From Lachnospiraceae bacterium (GTDB lineage Bacteria; Bacillota; Clostridia; Lachnospirales; Lachnospiraceae), in NCBI GenBank assembly GCA_017518185.1, contig JAFWWB010000028.1:1-36877 (forward strand): a stretch of DNA of 36,877 nt. Direction: 5' to 3'. The translations under genes and the position numbers were made by a program. Under the pieces are notes generated by a model. That model was not told the origin of the DNA. It saw only the letters and a list, made by a program, of their open reading frames with translations, and did no database searches. How positions within the stretch are numbered: the stretch's first letter is position 1; every line of letters begins with the position of its first letter. Below are positions 3,001-33,403 of this stretch, in pieces.

Positions 3001-4897
3001 GGTCAAAAATGGTAAAACTCGTGTGACTGTATCCTGCGACAAGATTAATGGTTACTGCAATGTTGAGGTTAACATTCCTGAAAAGGGGCACACTGCTGTT
3101 CCGCAGGCGGATCCTGTAAATGGAAGCAGACTGAAAACCGGAGACAGTATACGGCTATATTGTTCGTCGGAACAGGATGCTACGATATACTATACATTGG
3201 ATGGCAGCGATCCGACGGATGAGAGTGATGTGTTCAATAAAGCTATCGTAATAACTGATGAGATGGCCGGGACTACGATTTCAGTGAATGCCATGGCGGT
3301 AGCTGGAGATAAAGAACCAAGTGATATTGTATACTTTACTTACGAGATTGAAGAACCTCAACATATACATGTCTGGATGAAGGATTCTGTAAGCTGGAAC
3401 GGTAGTTATGAAGAGACACCATCGGAAGCTGTTTTTAATCTTGTATGTGAGGAGGACGAGGCACATACTGAGAGCCTTCCGGCTGATAAGATAGAACCTG
3501 TATCGCTGAATGAGGCTCAGAAAACCTATAAAGCAACACTAACCTATGAAGGTCAGGTTTTTGAGGATACAAAAGTTTTTGATGTAGAGGGAAAGGAACA
3601 GGATTGGGAGTTCACCGGATTTGACTGGACAGGTACCACCAGCGAAAACGGTGTGGCAAAGGCGGTATTCAGCTGCGCAGACTGCACGGAAGTGAAGGAA
3701 GTGGCAGCGACCGTGACGGAAAAGAACCGTACGAAGAATAGTGTGATCTGGCATGCAGAACTTACGGGACCGGACGGTAAAACGTATACCGAAGATCACA
3801 GCGTTAGCTGGACACCGTCAGGCGGAGATGATCCTTCCGGCGGAAAGATCGTCCTTGACGGAAAGGAAGTCACCAGCCTGAAGGATGCCTTTAAGTCAAT
3901 GAATAACAGCGGCAAAGATTATGCTATCGAGCTGAATGCGGATGTGACGGGAGAGAAGAACCTCACTATTCCGAAGACTGCGAAGAGCGTTACCATCATA
4001 GGAAACGGCCACAGCATCGAGATAGTGGGAACGAAGCTTACGGCTAATGCACCGCTGATACTTGAAGATGTTAAGTTCGTTGCAAAGACAAAGAAGAACG
4101 CTCCGGCGAAATTCACTCTGTATGCAAAGAAAGGACTGACAGTGAATGACGGACTGAGCTTCTCGGCAAAAGCTTCGACGGTTAAATCCGGAACGGATAT
4201 TCTGCTCTTCGGTGAGCTTGCAGCCGATGTTGTCAATTGCAAGGGACTGGCGCTTATGGATGGCGGAAACCTGAAGGCGGCGGCGAACAGCAAGATAACA
4301 GTAAATGGAAATGTCTCCGGAATGGGCGGAAGCATAGAGCTTTTGACGGGATTCAATAAGCCCATAGTCATAAAAGGCGTAGTGACCGGAATAGTGAGGG
4401 TCACCGGTGCGCATCAGGCCGACGGTACACAGGTCCTTAAGACTTCCGCCAAGAAAATAAACCCTGTATCGCTCAAAGCAAGTTTTGACGTGAGCGATAT
4501 CACGGAAAACGCTGTCGATACACATCTGTATTATCTCAGCAGCGGCAAAGCATGCATCTTCGGTGAGGCCATTGAGTTCAACGGTAACAGCTACGGTCTC
4601 TGGAAGGATGCGGTTGCTGCAATGAACGATGTTGTGAAGAGCGGAACGAAGGAGCTTACCCTGAATATAGAGGGAGATGTCAATATCAAGGGCAAGTTCC
4701 TGCTCCCGAAGAAGGGCTATGACAAGCTGGTGATAAGCGGTGCCGGAAAGATCACATTTACCGGTGATATCAGCCTTACGGGAAATACGGTCATTGACGA
4801 GGGCGTAGAGCTCTGCAAGGTCAATGCGAAGGGCGCTAAGATGAGCGGAAAGGTCAAAGCCGGAAAGTACAGCTACACCGGACCTGCTGTGTTCTGA
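53..4897 (+). CDS. Large secreted papain-like (C1 family) protein with Ig-like and chitobiase-type C-terminal domains
   Basis: A 1614-residue exported protein. The ATG at 53 is preferred over an in-frame TTG at 2 because GAGGTAGGGA lies just upstream and a signal peptide follows (basic start, hydrophobic core, likely cleavage after VYA near residue 29). A long acidic Asp/Glu linker leads into a papain-fold domain at about residues 195-440, with Cys213 in QGAYGTCWAHSA, His385 in NHAVVIVGW and Asn417 in WLVRNSYGG, so the catalytic set is intact. A lectin-like segment follows, then at least two Big_2-type Ig-like repeats (VSC motifs) and two chitobiase C-terminal-like modules (IYYTLDGSEP, IYYTLDGSDP). 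The last ~430 residues look like a repetitive beta-helix. No LPXTG anchor is seen. The first ~3.6 kb is clearly AT-rich, the rest host-like. It probably acts on the cell surface or outside the cell; its substrate is unknown. Confidence 0.85.
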   Translation: MKKRNNRIMAWLLTLTLLTPEFQGVRVYAAEPEYNSEAEDTDAETDKIEEEFQDTDTSEPEKDDTVFYEDEDKDAFDEAEEAEEALDEEYEEEETLSVYVASEDIENEAEEIVEKESDPDQNAEQTGESDSFVFVPGYVESPDKKPASIAADYVTYADTINDLVDGDDDSIQNDSAVATDSAFPYSYTETEALKSYFQQKYPEIRDQGAYGTCWAHSAIAMAEFYAINHGMADADVDYSEMHLVYWTNMQGTPSIAGYTGDTVSSDGVIALETGHSYEDSSYTLIKQRGVALESTVPYSFASSFETGKKLDPATERQDEICLTNAKEISMKNTELIKEAIVANGCVGVGYYADIAGYAYSGKYYSSYYNQANNCYYYDGKQFNNHAVVIVGWDDDFPNTNFVSDHRPEKDGAWLVRNSYGGNGENLFGGLGYFWLSYEDKALNYLILNYDNSAWVYEFVQAEDIPDNHYYYDSQMHNSVGYYWHNWAANIFKAQGDSILEEIKEVGFEIDNVASAGTKYSIHIYTDVDPELGPISGKEVTEAYTEGKVYLDGKYTIKLKKPVQVRHGEYYSVVIYRDGEYGICYEYASLEQSNEKTMYMVDLERGQSFYSRDGKSWLDQFGESNAKFKYGNVIISAYTDNVDTSNMDLSGVSLREDEINLTKYEQEYTINPKVYKKDGTLDMNPKLTFSSSNPDVAPVTEDGVIKAVDDGVSIISVSCGMLSANCIVKVSIQKKVEIKYAGSAIQELSFNALKYGEKNVTITVYDEKGERVKVDSISINLSDPKIVSFENQIDYTYFITMDIVPHRNGTALLTVSCPEAKPVVCKMTVQVQEVAKPVITASREGTLVPGDTISISCETKNAEIYYTLDGSEPSTESEKCKSGKVITIEKEDAEKEIILKVLAVKDGYSPSESEKSFVVGKFEPIATTMDIDPKAWTFTEQDETKQLLVKVLDQYGDEITNPEITYNIADEKVAVVESSGLIKAVKNGKTRVTVSCDKINGYCNVEVNIPEKGHTAVPQADPVNGSRLKTGDSIRLYCSSEQDATIYYTLDGSDPTDESDVFNKAIVITDEMAGTTISVNAMAVAGDKEPSDIVYFTYEIEEPQHIHVWMKDSVSWNGSYEETPSEAVFNLVCEEDEAHTESLPADKIEPVSLNEAQKTYKATLTYEGQVFEDTKVFDVEGKEQDWEFTGFDWTGTTSENGVAKAVFSCADCTEVKEVAATVTEKNRTKNSVIWHAELTGPDGKTYTEDHSVSWTPSGGDDPSGGKIVLDGKEVTSLKDAFKSMNNSGKDYAIELNADVTGEKNLTIPKTAKSVTIIGNGHSIEIVGTKLTANAPLILEDVKFVAKTKKNAPAKFTLYAKKGLTVNDGLSFSAKASTVKSGTDILLFGELAADVVNCKGLALMDGGNLKAAANSKITVNGNVSGMGGSIELLTGFNKPIVIKGVVTGIVRVTGAHQADGTQVLKTSAKKINPVSLKASFDVSDITENAVDTHLYYLSSGKACIFGEAIEFNGNSYGLWKDAVAAMNDVVKSGTKELTLNIEGDVNIKGKFLLPKKGYDKLVISGAGKITFTGDISLTGNTVIDEGVELCKVNAKGAKMSGKVKAGKYSYTGPAVF

Positions 4898-21333: not shown

Positions 21334-22383
21334 TTGGTAGATATAGAGAAAAATACAGGACAGTTTCATCTTAAGAGCAGCTTTACGACAGGGGAAGGCC
21401 CTCTTGCGCTGCTGGGTGCTTCCGGCTGCGGAAAGAGCATGACGCTTAAGTGCATCGCGGGAGTGGAGAAGCCGGACAGGGGAATGATAAAACTGGGGGA
21501 GAAAGTACTCTTCGACAGTGAAAAGAGGATATGCCTGCCGGCCAGGAAGCGGAGAGTCGGATACCTGTTTCAGAACTATGCTCTTTTTCCGAACATGACG
21601 GTGAGGGACAATATACTCTGTGCCGCGAAAGAAAGAGAATATGCAGACAGCCTCATAGAACGCTTCGGACTGGAAAACGTTGCCGCACAGCGTCCTGCGG
21701 AGCTTTCGGGAGGGCAGAGTCAGAGAACGGCACTTGCGAGGATGCTGGCGGCCCGGCCGGAAGCCATACTGCTGGATGAACCTTTTTCTGCACTCGATAA
21801 TCATATGCGCAGCAGGATGGAGCACGAGATACTGGATATACTCGAGGAATTTGAAGGCCCTGTCGTGCTGGTCACGCATGACAGGAATGAAGCTTTCCGT
21901 CTTGCGGAAAAGATTGCAGTGATGCAGGAGGGGACAGTGGTTGAGACAGCTGAGAAAAAAGCTTTCTTCGATCATCCCGAGACTGTGGCAGCGGCAAGGC
22001 TAACGGGCTGCAAGAACATCACGGCTTTGGAAAAAAAGGGGAGCGGGATCTATGCCAGGGACTGGGGGATAGATATAGCGCTGGACAGAAGAATGCCTGA
22101 AGGCATAACCCACGCGGGATACAGGGCGCATTATTTTACATATACGGAAGATAAGATACAGGAGAATGTGTTCACCTGCCGTTGTGTCAGGGTGATAGAG
22201 GATGTGTTCTCAACTGCCGTATGTTTCAGACAGAAGGGAAACGAAAATGATTCCCCTGATTCCGTGCTGACCTGGATGGTGGATAACGATAAATGGAACG
22301 GGATAAAAGACAGGGTGATGAGCGGGGAGTTCATGCTTAAGCTGGATCCCGGAAGGATGATGCTTTTAAAAGATGCACGATAA
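21334..22383 (+). CDS. modC: Molybdate ABC transporter ATP-binding protein ModC
   Basis: 349 residues from TTG 21334, chosen because GAAGGA lies 7 bases upstream; TTG 21328 is the in-frame alternative and no ATG is near. Walker A GASGCGKS, signature LSGGQSQRTALARML, Walker B AILLDEPFSALD and the switch His in LVTHDRNEAF are intact. The C-terminal ~120 residues are a poorly conserved regulatory region; I do not see a clear MOP/TOBE motif. It hydrolyses ATP to drive molybdate import. The end overlaps moaA by 11 bases, indicating coupling. Confidence 0.9.
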   Translation: MVDIEKNTGQFHLKSSFTTGEGPLALLGASGCGKSMTLKCIAGVEKPDRGMIKLGEKVLFDSEKRICLPARKRRVGYLFQNYALFPNMTVRDNILCAAKEREYADSLIERFGLENVAAQRPAELSGGQSQRTALARMLAARPEAILLDEPFSALDNHMRSRMEHEILDILEEFEGPVVLVTHDRNEAFRLAEKIAVMQEGTVVETAEKKAFFDHPETVAAARLTGCKNITALEKKGSGIYARDWGIDIALDRRMPEGITHAGYRAHYFTYTEDKIQENVFTCRCVRVIEDVFSTAVCFRQKGNENDSPDSVLTWMVDNDKWNGIKDRVMSGEFMLKLDPGRMMLLKDAR

Positions 22384-23602
22384 TACAGACAGCAGAATAC
22401 TGATCGACGGATACGGAAGAAGGATAGATTATCTGCGTATCTCCCTTACCGACAAGTGCAACCTGCGCTGCGCATACTGTATGCCCGCTGAGGGAGTGGG
22501 GCTTATGAGCCACAGTGATATCCTGAGCCTGGAGGAAACGGTCAGGCTTGCGGGGATCATGACGGAAATGGGGATACGCAGGATAAGGCTTACAGGCGGA
22601 GAACCCCTTGTCCGTAAGGGAGTTGTTTCGCTTGTGGAAAAGCTGGGGGCGCTTCCCGCACAGCCTGAGCTTGCAATGACCACCAACGGCGTATTCCTCG
22701 CGGAAAAGCTGGAGGAACTGACCGCCTGCGGGATGCGCAGCTTCAATATAAGCCTGGATACACTTGACAGGGAGTGTTTTCATAAGCTTACCGGAACGGA
22801 TGCTCTCACAAAGGTGCTGGACTCGATAGATAAGGCATTAGAGGCCGGCTGTGAGGTAAAGCTCAACTGTGTGCCGCTGAAGGGCATAAATGACAGGGAA
22901 CTGCCGGCGCTGCTGGCATATGCAGGTGAAAGGGAGATACCGCTCCGCTTTATAGAACTCATGCCCATAGGCTGCGGAAGCCGTCTGGAGGGCATGAGCC
23001 GTGAAGAAGTGCTGGAGGCGCTGGGCGCGGACCTTATACGCCATCCCGAGCAGAGCGCAGAAGACAGGATTCCTCGACTCGCTTCGCTCGCTCGGAATGA
23101 CAATAGAGAGTGTCATCCGGAGCGTAGTGCAGAAGACAGGATTCCTCGACTCGCTTCGCTCGCTCGGAATGACAATAGAGAGTGTCATCCGGAGCGTAGT
23201 GCAGAAGACAGGATTCCCCGACTCGCTTCGCTCGCTCGGAATGACAATAGAGAGTGTCATCCCGAGCGGAGTGAGCGCAGCGAACGAAGTCGAGGGATCT
23301 TCCCTTCCGGCCCTTCCCGCTATCTGCGTTTTAACGGCGCCGACATAGGCTTTATCTCTCCCCTGTCCCATTCTTTCTGCGGGAGCTGCAACCGCATACG
23401 TCTTACCGCAGACGGACAGCTAAAGCTCTGCCTCTGTTATCCTGACGGTCCGGATCTTAAGAAGCTTCTCAGGGAAGGGGCGGCGGACTGTGAAATAGAA
23501 GAGGAGATACGGAAGGCGATTTTGAAAAAGCCGGAGAGACACTGCTTCACTACGGCAGGAAAGGCTGCGGAGGACCGCAGGATGTTTGAGATAGGAGGAT
23601 GA
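22373..23602 (+). CDS. moaA: GTP 3',8-cyclase MoaA with an in-frame repeat-derived insertion
   Basis: 409 residues against a family norm near 325. It is the radical SAM enzyme that starts molybdenum cofactor synthesis with MoaC. The SAM-cluster motif CNLRCAYC (Cys29, 33, 36), LTGGEPLVRKGV, FIELMPIG, the C-terminal cluster cysteines (Cys336, Cys339, Cys353) and the terminal Gly-Gly are all kept. Residues ~224-309 are foreign: three 24-residue copies beginning HPE[QR]SAEDRIPRLAS plus a half copy, encoded by the palindromic repeat array. The insertion falls between the barrel and the C-terminal cluster domain and keeps the frame. The ATG overlaps the end of modC. The enzyme is probably still active because no conserved residue is lost, but this is inference. 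Confidence 0.9.
   Translation: MHDNTDSRILIDGYGRRIDYLRISLTDKCNLRCAYCMPAEGVGLMSHSDILSLEETVRLAGIMTEMGIRRIRLTGGEPLVRKGVVSLVEKLGALPAQPELAMTTNGVFLAEKLEELTACGMRSFNISLDTLDRECFHKLTGTDALTKVLDSIDKALEAGCEVKLNCVPLKGINDRELPALLAYAGEREIPLRFIELMPIGCGSRLEGMSREEVLEALGADLIRHPEQSAEDRIPRLASLARNDNRECHPERSAEDRIPRLASLARNDNRECHPERSAEDRIPRLASLARNDNRECHPERSERSERSRGIFPSGPSRYLRFNGADIGFISPLSHSFCGSCNRIRLTADGQLKLCLCYPDGPDLKKLLREGAADCEIEEEIRKAILKKPERHCFTTAGKAAEDRRMFEIGG
23044..23302. repeat. Tandem array of the palindromic repeat inside moaA
   Basis: Units start at 23044, 23116, 23188 and 23260, a period of exactly 72 bp (24 codons). The first three are nearly identical; the last is a half unit ending GTCGAGGGATCTTCC. Each has TCATCC(C/G)GAGC and CGCTCGGAATGACA ends like the intergenic copies. 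All stay in the moaA frame. Confidence 0.9.
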
Positions 23603-31623: not shown

Positions 31624-32694
31624 TTACTCAAAGAGTATTCCCTTCATGCAGACCTTGGGACGGTCGTGATCGTAATCCCAGCTGTGATAGGAGCCTCCCC
31701 GGCACCATTTGGCCTGGGGGCAGGAAGCGCAGGTCTCGTTCCGTTCCGACAGCGGACGGCGGAAGATCTCAAAGCGGTTCTCCCAGATATCAGTGAACTT
31801 TTCTTTTAATATATTGCCCTGTATGGTCCCCGGGCCGTGGGGGATATCCAGGCAGGCTGTGACATCGCCGTTAACCAGGATGCCTGCCACGTAAACGCCT
31901 GCATTGCAGAGGAAATACCAGTCACGCACCTCGGCCTCATATTTCAGCCCCAGGAAATGGCAGCAGGAATACTCCACGGGAAGCTTCTTTGACCGTTTTT
32001 CAAGTATGAACTCCATGAGCCGGCGGTTGTCATCGGCGGTAAGGTGCATTTCAGGAACCTTCTCGGCCCGGCCTATGGGCTCCAGCCCCGTAAGGCGCCA
32101 CACGTTGATATCCATGTTGTCAAAGATCTCAAAGAGCCGGTCCAGTTCATTTATATTCTGATGGTTGACCACTGTGGTGACCATGACATTAAAACAGTCA
32201 AGATCTATCAGGTTCTGTATTCCCTCCATACCCATACGGTACGCTCCGGGAAGGCCCCTGTAGCGGTCGTGGGTCTCCTCGGTGCCGTCTATGCTCAGGG
32301 ATATGGTGCGCATTCCCGCTTCCTTAAGATGGCGCGCGGTCTCCTTATCGATAAGGGTGCCATTGCTGGTCATGCCCCAGCGGAAGCCCTTGTCCCGGAC
32401 GGCTTCCATCAGGGGAAAGAAATCAGGATAGAGCAGGGGTTCACCTCCGGTGACAGCCACGAGGGGCTTCTTCTCGTATCTTTCAGCTACCTCGTCCAGA
32501 ACGCCCAGGTATACCTCGGGGGCCAGACCGTGGGGAAGATCCCCGGCACAGCTGCTGCCGCAGTGGAAGCAGTGCTCATTGCAGCGCAGAGTTAATTCAA
32601 AGAAAAGCTGCCTCAGCTGGGGGGCTTTTCGCAGCTTTTCGTGATATGCAGCCAGGGTGTCCAGATTCCTGGTCTTTATCTCATTCCGTGTCAT
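31624..32694 (-). CDS. Radical SAM/SPASM enzyme, putative modifier of the adjacent VYGPP-repeat lipoprotein
   Basis: 356 residues. The SAM cluster motif is CNEHCFHC (Cys38, 42, 45), followed by AVTGGEPLLYPDFFP, the MTSNGTLID strand and ISLSIDGTEETHDRYRG. The C-terminal SPASM region has many cysteines (FLCNAGVYVAGILVNGDVTAC, then CASCPQAKWCRGGSY and a final KVC) for auxiliary [4Fe-4S] clusters. SPASM enzymes commonly modify ribosomally made peptides. The ATG overlaps the stop of the upstream lipoprotein gene (ATGA), and its ribosome binding site GAGGA is within the last codons of that gene, so both are made together. The pairing recalls the 'rSAM/lipoprotein' systems described mainly in Bacteroidetes; assignment to that family is from memory. 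The chemistry is unknown. Confidence 0.85.
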   Translation of the reverse strand: MTRNEIKTRNLDTLAAYHEKLRKAPQLRQLFFELTLRCNEHCFHCGSSCAGDLPHGLAPEVYLGVLDEVAERYEKKPLVAVTGGEPLLYPDFFPLMEAVRDKGFRWGMTSNGTLIDKETARHLKEAGMRTISLSIDGTEETHDRYRGLPGAYRMGMEGIQNLIDLDCFNVMVTTVVNHQNINELDRLFEIFDNMDINVWRLTGLEPIGRAEKVPEMHLTADDNRRLMEFILEKRSKKLPVEYSCCHFLGLKYEAEVRDWYFLCNAGVYVAGILVNGDVTACLDIPHGPGTIQGNILKEKFTDIWENRFEIFRRPLSERNETCASCPQAKWCRGGSYHSWDYDHDRPKVCMKGILFE

Positions 32695-33146
32695 TGGAAA
32701 TCCTCGGGAGGCCCGTAGACCACGGGAGGTTCATTATCCTCCGGTTCGGGGATGTCCTCAAGTTCATCGGCCGGAGGTCCGTATACGCCTTCGATCTCGT
32801 TGAAGCCTTCATCGAAGTATTCGGGAGGTCCGTAAACATCTTCCAGCTGGTTGTCTTCTTCATCAAAATCCTCGGGAGGTCCGTAGACGTCTTCCAGCTC
32901 ATTATCTTCTTCATCAAAATATTCGGGAGGACCGTAGACCGCCACCGGTTCGTTGTTGTCCTCATCGAAAAACGCCGGAGGTCCGTAGACATCTTCCAGC
33001 TCGTTATCGTCGGCATCAGGCTTCTCATAACGGCCGCGGTTGGGCTGTTCTTCAGCCTGGTTGTTGAAAGCGGTACAGCCTGCGCTCCCGAAGAGGGTGG
33101 AGGCTGCAAGGCCTATGAGCATGATCTTTCTCTTAAAAGGTTTCAT
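32691..33146 (-). CDS. Lipoprotein with six VYGPP repeats, putative radical-SAM-modified substrate
   Basis: 151 residues. A basic start and hydrophobic stretch end in a lipobox-like SAGC with Cys24, so it is probably lipid-anchored outside the membrane. The mature part is very acidic and lacks any globular domain. VYGPP occurs at residues 53, 70, 87, 104 and 121, exactly 17 residues apart, and again at 143. Spacers follow a D-E-x-D-N-[EQ]-x-E-[DG] theme, and an aromatic or Phe residue usually follows the PP (PPEYF, PPEDF, PPAFF). The last repeat ends the protein two to three residues later. No enzyme motif is visible. Translational coupling to a SPASM enzyme suggests that the repeats are modified cores. 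No protease or exporter is adjacent. Confidence 0.8.
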   Translation of the reverse strand: MKPFKRKIMLIGLAASTLFGSAGCTAFNNQAEEQPNRGRYEKPDADDNELEDVYGPPAFFDEDNNEPVAVYGPPEYFDEEDNELEDVYGPPEDFDEEDNQLEDVYGPPEYFDEGFNEIEGVYGPPADELEDIPEPEDNEPPVVYGPPEDFQ

Positions 33147-33255: not shown

Positions 33256-33290
33256 GACAGGTACTGTAGAGAAGGTAGATCCCTCGGCTG

Positions 33291-33403
33291 CGCTCGGGAT
33301 GACAGAGCAAGAGCGCTCGGGATGACAGAGCAAGAGCGCTCGGGATGACAGAGCAAGAGCGCTCGGGATGACAGAGCAAGAGCACTCGGGATGACAGAGC
33401 GGG
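33291..33403. repeat. 23-bp tandem repeat in the pfkA leader, derived from the palindromic repeat family
   Basis: Four exact units of 23 bp (CGCTCGGGATGACAGAGCAA plus GAG) start at 33291, 33314, 33337 and 33360, and a diverged fifth ends at 33403. GATCCCTCGGCTG directly upstream and the CGCTCGGGATGACA core match one end of the dispersed repeat. Unit junctions form the palindrome GAGCGCTC. Confidence 0.9.

Follow-up and report, generated by a model that had tools for sequence, protein, structure and literature searches.

The analysed window, a stretch of 36,877 nucleotides from a Lachnospiraceae bacterium, carries on its reverse strand two overlapping genes. The upstream gene (32691..33146, 151 amino acids plus stop) encodes an acidic YGPP-repeat lipoprotein, which we propose as the substrate of the downstream gene product on the basis of its sequence and of the pairing of the two proteins in relatives. 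Its signal peptide extends up to Cys24 (33075..33146) with a GSAGC lipobox, and the remainder of the protein has a net charge of -41, counting D, E, K and R. A recount confirmed six VYGPP motifs on the same strand, at residues 53-57 (32976..32990), 70-74 (32925..32939), 87-91 (32874..32888), 104-108 (32823..32837), 121-125 (32772..32786) and 143-147 (32706..32720); the first five start with an exact period of 17 residues, and the sixth lies 22 residues past the fifth. A chance origin can be ruled out, since none of 20,000 shuffles of the part following Cys24 contained at least two VYGPP. The codons vary among the copies (GTC/GTT/GTA, GGA/GGT/GGG and CCG/CCC), so the repeats are not a fresh DNA duplication. 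The lipoprotein could not be assigned to a known family: it had no NCBIfam match up to an E-value of 0.01, TIGR04134 (cutoff 39.8) included, and a single Pfam match, to PhrC_PhrF, which covers the signal peptide and stays below the cutoff with an E-value of 0.044. A search of its own genome with the TIGR04134 profile gave no match either, the controls in the same search being equally silent.

The downstream gene (31624..32694, reverse strand, 356 amino acids plus stop) encodes a radical SAM/SPASM enzyme, as judged from its sequence, profile matches, structural model and position in trees. Both features expected of radical SAM/SPASM maturases are present, i.e., a CxxxCxxC cluster motif (CNEHCFHC, residues 38-45, 32560..32583) and a SPASM domain (residues 263-326, 31717..31908), with Pfam E-values of 3.7e-23 for Radical_SAM and 4.9e-08 for SPASM. 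The nearest NCBIfam model is TIGR04133 ('rSAM_w_lipo'), which the enzyme matches with 266.6 bits, below the curated cutoff of 425; all 16 members of our alignment A1 match this model, with the best E-value of all families. Other models score lower: AhbD (143 bits), MftC (133.7 bits, third best and below its cutoff of 265) and TIGR04103 (112 bits). The AlphaFold model of the enzyme (pLDDT 91.1, pTM 0.89) predicts a single helix ahead of the first strand, and its top PDB folds in Foldseek are SkfB, BlsE, SuiB and CteB. As the first-pass annotation had described, the lipoprotein stop and the enzyme start overlap by four nucleotides (ATGA, 32691..32694), and a GAGG located 7 nt before the enzyme ATG (32705-32702), hence within the lipoprotein gene, is the likely ribosome binding site. 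A tRNA-Ser(CGA) gene and a terminator-like hairpin lie 3' of the enzyme gene. Upstream of the lipoprotein gene is a divergent gene which we take, by eye, to be phosphofructokinase-like. The interval between these two genes (~33270-33400) contains a tandem unit of ~23 nt (gctcgggatgacagagcaagagc), whose translation resembles an element at ~23 kb; there, repeated in-frame HPERSAEDRIPRLASLARNDNRE-type segments (~23040-23350) occur in the MoaA-like protein encoded by ORF 22373-23602 and look as if repeat elements had been inserted in frame.

A scan of named genomes for relatives of the enzyme yielded 580 confirmed relatives, of which the best 80 were kept; the titles of these 80 include Lachnospiraceae, Ruminococcus, other Oscillospiraceae, Erysipelotrichaceae, Coriobacteriaceae, Eggerthellaceae and others, distant members being under-sampled both by this selection and by scan patterns that derive from these same enzymes. 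Cultured strains with the enzyme include Butyrivibrio sp. MC2021 (L080) and Ruminococcus flavefaciens XPD3002 (L065). Within the flanks kept, 88 of the 104 collected enzyme loci, which include near-duplicates such as L075 and L076 (L106-L108 were left out as copies), encode a YGPP protein on the enzyme strand, and in 85 of these 88 its ORF ends between 60 nt inside and 400 nt before the enzyme start. In total, 120 YGPP ORFs carry 333 YGPP, from one to seven per protein, in line with the earlier suggestion that the copies behave as modules and that the motif is the shared feature; seven and six such ORFs occur near one enzyme in L053 and L066 (Oscillospiraceae/Ruminococcus), respectively. No YGPP was found in 405,697 other residues, a figure biased on the enzyme strand, where every ORF with YGPP was counted as a partner.

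The 16 loci devoid of a same-strand YGPP ORF include four (L016, L026, L030 and L105) whose genomes encode YGPP proteins elsewhere (4/4 looked at), and L019, with a YGPAP partner. The partner motifs in L020 and L022 are YGPMP and YGPKP, in proteins that we take, by eye, to be zinc ribbons (as are those of L024 and L149), and the partner motif in L088 is CGYGPS. In L028 and L064, which have no YGPP ORF, the upstream sequence is 87 and 134 nt long. No YGPP was seen at the loci of three distant enzymes (L112-L114). In L025, two short lipoproteins (L025:1246-1482 and 3053-3241), one on each side of the enzyme, end with YYGCPNS[RK][RK]VKKLNL. In L021, the enzyme (L021:582-2259) is split over two overlapping frames, and the neighbouring protein carries YAPPP where others have YGPP; this locus possibly corresponds to a decaying copy. 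Among 35 loci from viral contigs, one close enzyme was found (L149, IMG/VR), 49% identical and located beside a zinc-ribbon protein with CLYGSP. Its neighbours, which look PheS/PheT-like by eye, suggest cellular DNA.

The reverse search, with a 24-column profile of the motif, was run on 299 genomes of the family and 216 of the class, the enzyme and motif searches being taken as covering the same genome draw in each case. The enzyme is present (E <= 1e-60) in 18 of the 299 family genomes, and the motif profile matches 12, of which 11 carry the enzyme; the motif was thus detected in 11/18 genomes with the enzyme versus 1/281 without it (Fisher p 1e-14). The lone enzyme-less match, in G250, is at noise level, with an E-value of 0.0095, and its frame of 47 aa runs opposite a long ORF. 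In the class, the motif was detected in 4/9 genomes with the enzyme (E <= 1e-90) versus 0/207 without it (Fisher p 1.4e-6), and in all nine a YGPP or YGVP protein adjoins the enzyme. The profile overlooks single and variant motifs, which leaves 7/18 family and 5/9 class enzyme genomes unmatched; in six of these seven family genomes, the motif beside the enzyme is variant or single (YGPKP, YGPMP, YGPAP, YGPPP, YYGCP or YAPPP), the seventh corresponding to L023 (see below), and the five class genomes all have YGPP or YGVP. Frequent occurrence of such proteins in genomes lacking the enzyme, which the first-pass annotation had named as the observation that would speak against a coupling, was therefore not found in the genomes tested.

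The pairing of the enzyme with a YGPP protein is thus real and widespread. The stricter expectation that the two always adjoin each other holds for most loci but not for the four whose YGPP proteins are encoded elsewhere in the genome. Some of the genomes are MAGs, and such 'in trans' proteins could reflect binning; taken as they stand, they argue against a simple operon hitch-hiking. No family of neighbouring proteins (ORFs of at least 60 aa without YGPP, within 3 kb, BLAST 1e-8) recurs in more than five of the 104 loci, a survey that could miss a small diverged protein. The reported absence of protease and exporter genes therefore extends to the relatives, and the window differs from a classical RiPP cluster, with its leader, protease and exporter, in having a lipoprotein signal and no recurring neighbour family. 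Given this co-occurrence, the repeat protein is very probably a substrate of the enzyme.

The consensus of the motif is N-x4-V-Y-G-P-P-E-x-F. The residue before Tyr is Val in 232 and Leu in 64 of the 333 motifs, and Ala, Ile, Met, Thr, Gly, Asp, Cys or Glu are also possible. Spacing between neighbouring motifs ranges from 9 to 185 residues, 17 being the commonest (30/213 pairs), which rules out a fixed repeat architecture. What recurs is a Tyr-Gly pair followed, one or two residues on, by Pro, Y-G-(x)-P, in the forms YGPP, YGVP, YGSP, YGTP, YGMP and YGCP; in YGPMP, YGPKP and YGPAP, only the first Pro fits this core. The core is found on unrelated scaffolds. Besides lipoproteins, TIGR04134 members among them, and the zinc ribbons named above, these comprise dockerin proteins of type I (L053, L073), a membrane protein with DUF805 (L126) and a Big_2 protein (L031). 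One YGPP ORF of L053 is a Pfam dockerin, and the other YGPP ORFs of this locus presumably are similar, as they look alike by eye; likewise, we take proteins of L015, L093 and L233 to resemble the DUF805 protein of L126. The lipid anchor proposed for the substrate is supported in the window by its lipobox and cannot be generalized, since substrates elsewhere need not be lipoproteins. Nor do substrates have to be encoded next to the enzyme. In L023, one of the 16 loci without a same-strand YGPP ORF, the enzyme has lost its radical SAM cysteines to a deletion across the cluster motif and shows AGAEP for TGGEP, while the adjacent acidic protein ends with NINQPRSGPPEMAG, which corresponds to the motif without Tyr. 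This joint decay, a single case, points to the Tyr. Altogether, Tyr-Gly is likely to be the modification site.

The closest described arrangement is that of the TIGR04133/TIGR04134 pairs of Bacteroidota and Treponema, in which the enzyme also adjoins a lipoprotein. The two families are named for each other in NCBIfam, with a hypothetical-equivalog label only. Records of a plasmid collection from Parabacteroides, Phocaeicola and Treponema encode a TIGR04133-type enzyme beside lipoproteins with CEYGSP, CEYGTP or CYGMP, i.e., with Y-G-x-P just after the lipobox Cys, and L218, from the class of the window, has a TIGR04134-scoring protein with MYGPPP beside a TIGR04133-type enzyme. The window pair differs by an enzyme score well below the TIGR04133 cutoff, by a lipoprotein without TIGR04134 match and by six motifs instead of one. 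Over the phylum, TIGR04133 matched 4 of 249 genomes at 1e-50, none above the cutoff, and two of these matches (G605 and G678) belong to the splicease clade discussed below. Our literature searches, which extended to radical SAM enzymes with lipoproteins or dockerins, to DUF1843 and to spliceases with lipoproteins, returned nothing on the chemistry of TIGR04133/TIGR04134, on YGPP lipoproteins or on the present pair; Scott et al. 2022 (Chem) may cover part of this ground.

The chemistry that we tentatively favour, at somewhat below even probability, is a protein splicing of the type catalysed by PlpX, by analogy with its site. PlpX is described as excising tyramine from Xaa-Tyr-Gly and rejoining the chain (PMC11002830), and this motif can direct several splices within one precursor (PMC10373908). 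The leader is dispensable, and a tag of ten residues is accepted both at the termini and internally; the tags include GGPIRP[LG]YGLPI, the loss being C8H9NO (PMC10533398). All six motifs of the window lipoprotein contain such a site, V-Y-G. Moreover, a Nostoc enzyme in our dataset (L188) passes TIGR04103 with 853 bits (cutoff 725), and the Nif11 precursor encoded beside it ends with LYGLPPELF, close to the VYGPPExF consensus. We propose splicing because these features coincide: the Xaa-Tyr-Gly site, the PIRP[LG]YGLPI tags and the end of the Nostoc precursor. There are also points of difference. Of the 16 placements of a tag in the FtsZ table of PMC10533398, only two were modified; both carry GYGLPI, and those with LYGLPI remained unmodified. 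Another tag, GYGVVFP, has no x-Pro. PlpX does not require Val or Leu before Tyr, whereas 296 of the 333 YGPP motifs have one of them, and PlpX was shown to work with PlpY (PMC11002830; PMC10373908). In the window, neither a Nif11 nor an NHLP leader is present, the putative substrate is an entire surface protein and no PlpY-type gene stands next to the enzyme, where a tRNA gene is located instead; a search of the window's genome with a PlpY-type neighbour of the Nostoc enzyme (L188:5251-5463) gave no match, in a search without positive control. The enzyme is not a TIGR04103 member (112 versus 725 bits), and it scores lower against this family than against AhbD and MftC, which speaks against splicing.

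In an unrooted tree of 41 rows, YGPP enzymes group with TIGR04133 enzymes (98/98), and both, together with the splicease clade, are split from the MftC- and AhbD-like rows (98/94). The window enzyme forms a separate branch beside three TIGR04133-type enzymes in the trees. The same split was weaker in two earlier trees (83/54, then 91/79); four long rows and six thinned YGPP rows were dropped before the second of these, and two long rows before the 41-row tree. An AU test on the latter rejected the 29 named rows as a clade because the unnamed L002, L117 and L118 fall inside. Placing the root on the branch to YGPP and TIGR04133 enzymes would undo the grouping with spliceases; we give moderate weight to this apparent phylogenetic link, which depends on the root. 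Residues that might be diagnostic do not help: four alignment columns are common to the YGPP family and the splicease clade only, three to the YGPP family and the other enzymes only, and nine to the splicease clade and the other enzymes while absent from the YGPP family, i.e., there is no excess. The GDL-motif system (TIGR03913 with DUF1843 peptides) also groups with the Nostoc splicease and differs by short peptides without repeats or lipobox; in the 11 DUF1843 partner peptides, a Tyr is always present in the N-terminal region, followed by Gly in six and by Ala or Met in five. Together with YAGP repeats, the latter indicate that Tyr is not always followed by Gly in the splicease clade.

The window's own genome encodes a second radical SAM enzyme of the splicease clade (L002:990-2523, contig C6 of G000 at ~77.7-79.3 kb), for which TIGR04103 is the best model with 239 bits. 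Before it comes a protein with a double zinc ribbon, in which VYGGP occurs once and YAGP three times. Enzymes of this type occur in 10 of 200 family genomes, and 8 of 11 loci, this one included, have partners with repeated YAGP, YAPP/YAAP or KYGYP-type motifs. Proteins with six or seven KYG[YFI]P-type repeats stand beside L002-like enzymes in L230 (2537-3457) and L232 (280-1440), with no Pfam match over the cutoff.

In the mechanism that we propose, the two genes would form a cassette in which the lipoprotein is the substrate and the radical enzyme the modifier. The enzyme would itself recognize the short motif N-x4-V-Y-G-P-P-E-x-F, without a leader peptide, and act once per repeat in the cytoplasm, before export of the lipoprotein. 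A splicease-like excision of tyramine at up to six sites would remove ~135.07 Da (C8H9NO) per motif, or ~810.4 Da for six, and leave a lipid-anchored protein, acidic and flexible, whose backbone would bear as many as six ketoamides. One might speculate that, on the cell surface, these ketoamides are reactive or hinder proteases, a proposal that leans on the statement of one review that beta-residues confer protease inhibition (PMC10373908).

The same pair and the same site could also be subject to another chemistry, with the backbone kept: at Y-G-(x)-P, a crosslink centred on Tyr or an alteration of its side chain, such as a link from the Tyr ring to a Cbeta within Y-G-P, or an oxidation at Calpha or Cbeta. 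We consider this a serious possibility, though short of probable. The fold search, which starts from a predicted model, ranks SPASM maturases forming thioethers or crosslinks first (SkfB, SuiB, CteB), our searches found no tested chemistry for TIGR04133, and the tie to spliceases is root-dependent and finds no support in shared residues. Against it, relatives have Pro, Ser, Thr, Met, Cys or Val following Gly, so that a single partner atom at this position is not conserved, and the known splicease site and tags match the core.

It is unlikely that YGPP mainly serves as a docking site while a neighbouring residue is modified, either the aromatic residue after the motif or the Asn six positions before Tyr. 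An aromatic residue is indeed present at +6 in 173 of the 333 motifs (208 counting +5 to +7), as well as at +6 or +7 in the four TIGR04134-type partners read (4/4), and Asn at -6 in 133. However, the zinc-ribbon and YYGCP partners lack those positions and keep Tyr-Gly, and L023 lost the motif Tyr together with the enzyme cluster. The first-pass annotation had left the site open between the Tyr and the following aromatic residue; Tyr is the likelier target because Tyr-Gly with a nearby Pro is the most constant core, and the aromatic residue, frequent as it is, is less likely.

That the protein is not modified at all, its repeats simply serving in binding or as spacers and the enzyme having another target, is very unlikely. 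Surface proteins often contain acidic Pro-rich repeats, and no product has been seen; this reading is opposed by the co-occurrence of enzyme and motif, substrates in trans included, and by the change of scaffold under the motif while the enzyme stays. Least probable is a chemistry as in mycofactocin (MftA, MftB, MftC), in which Tyr is altered oxidatively and becomes bonded to the Val before it: a SPASM enzyme acts there too on a Val-Tyr pair, Val precedes Tyr in most YGPP motifs and MftC is the third best NCBIfam match, but MftC precursors in our dataset end with GVY, a single C-terminal site where YGPP motifs are internal, many residues besides Val precede Tyr, and MftC, which has an MftB partner, lies across a supported branch from the YGPP enzymes.

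Returning to splicing, we regard it as possible, rather than probable, that a leader- and accessory-free backbone splicing serves generally to modify surface and membrane proteins in Clostridia, Coriobacteria, Bacteroidota and Treponema, via a transferable Tyr-Gly-(x)-Pro tag that would yield one to seven ketoamides per protein, some of them on dockerin proteins. The recurrence of the Tyr-Gly-(x)-Pro core over scaffolds and phyla names the likely site. If this proposal is correct, backbone splicing by radical enzymes would not be confined to small natural products, TIGR04133 and TIGR04134 would gain their missing function, and the enzymes could offer a simpler tool than PlpXY for site-specific ketone labelling of proteins. 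Many gut and rumen bacteria would then carry backbone ketoamides on their surface proteins.
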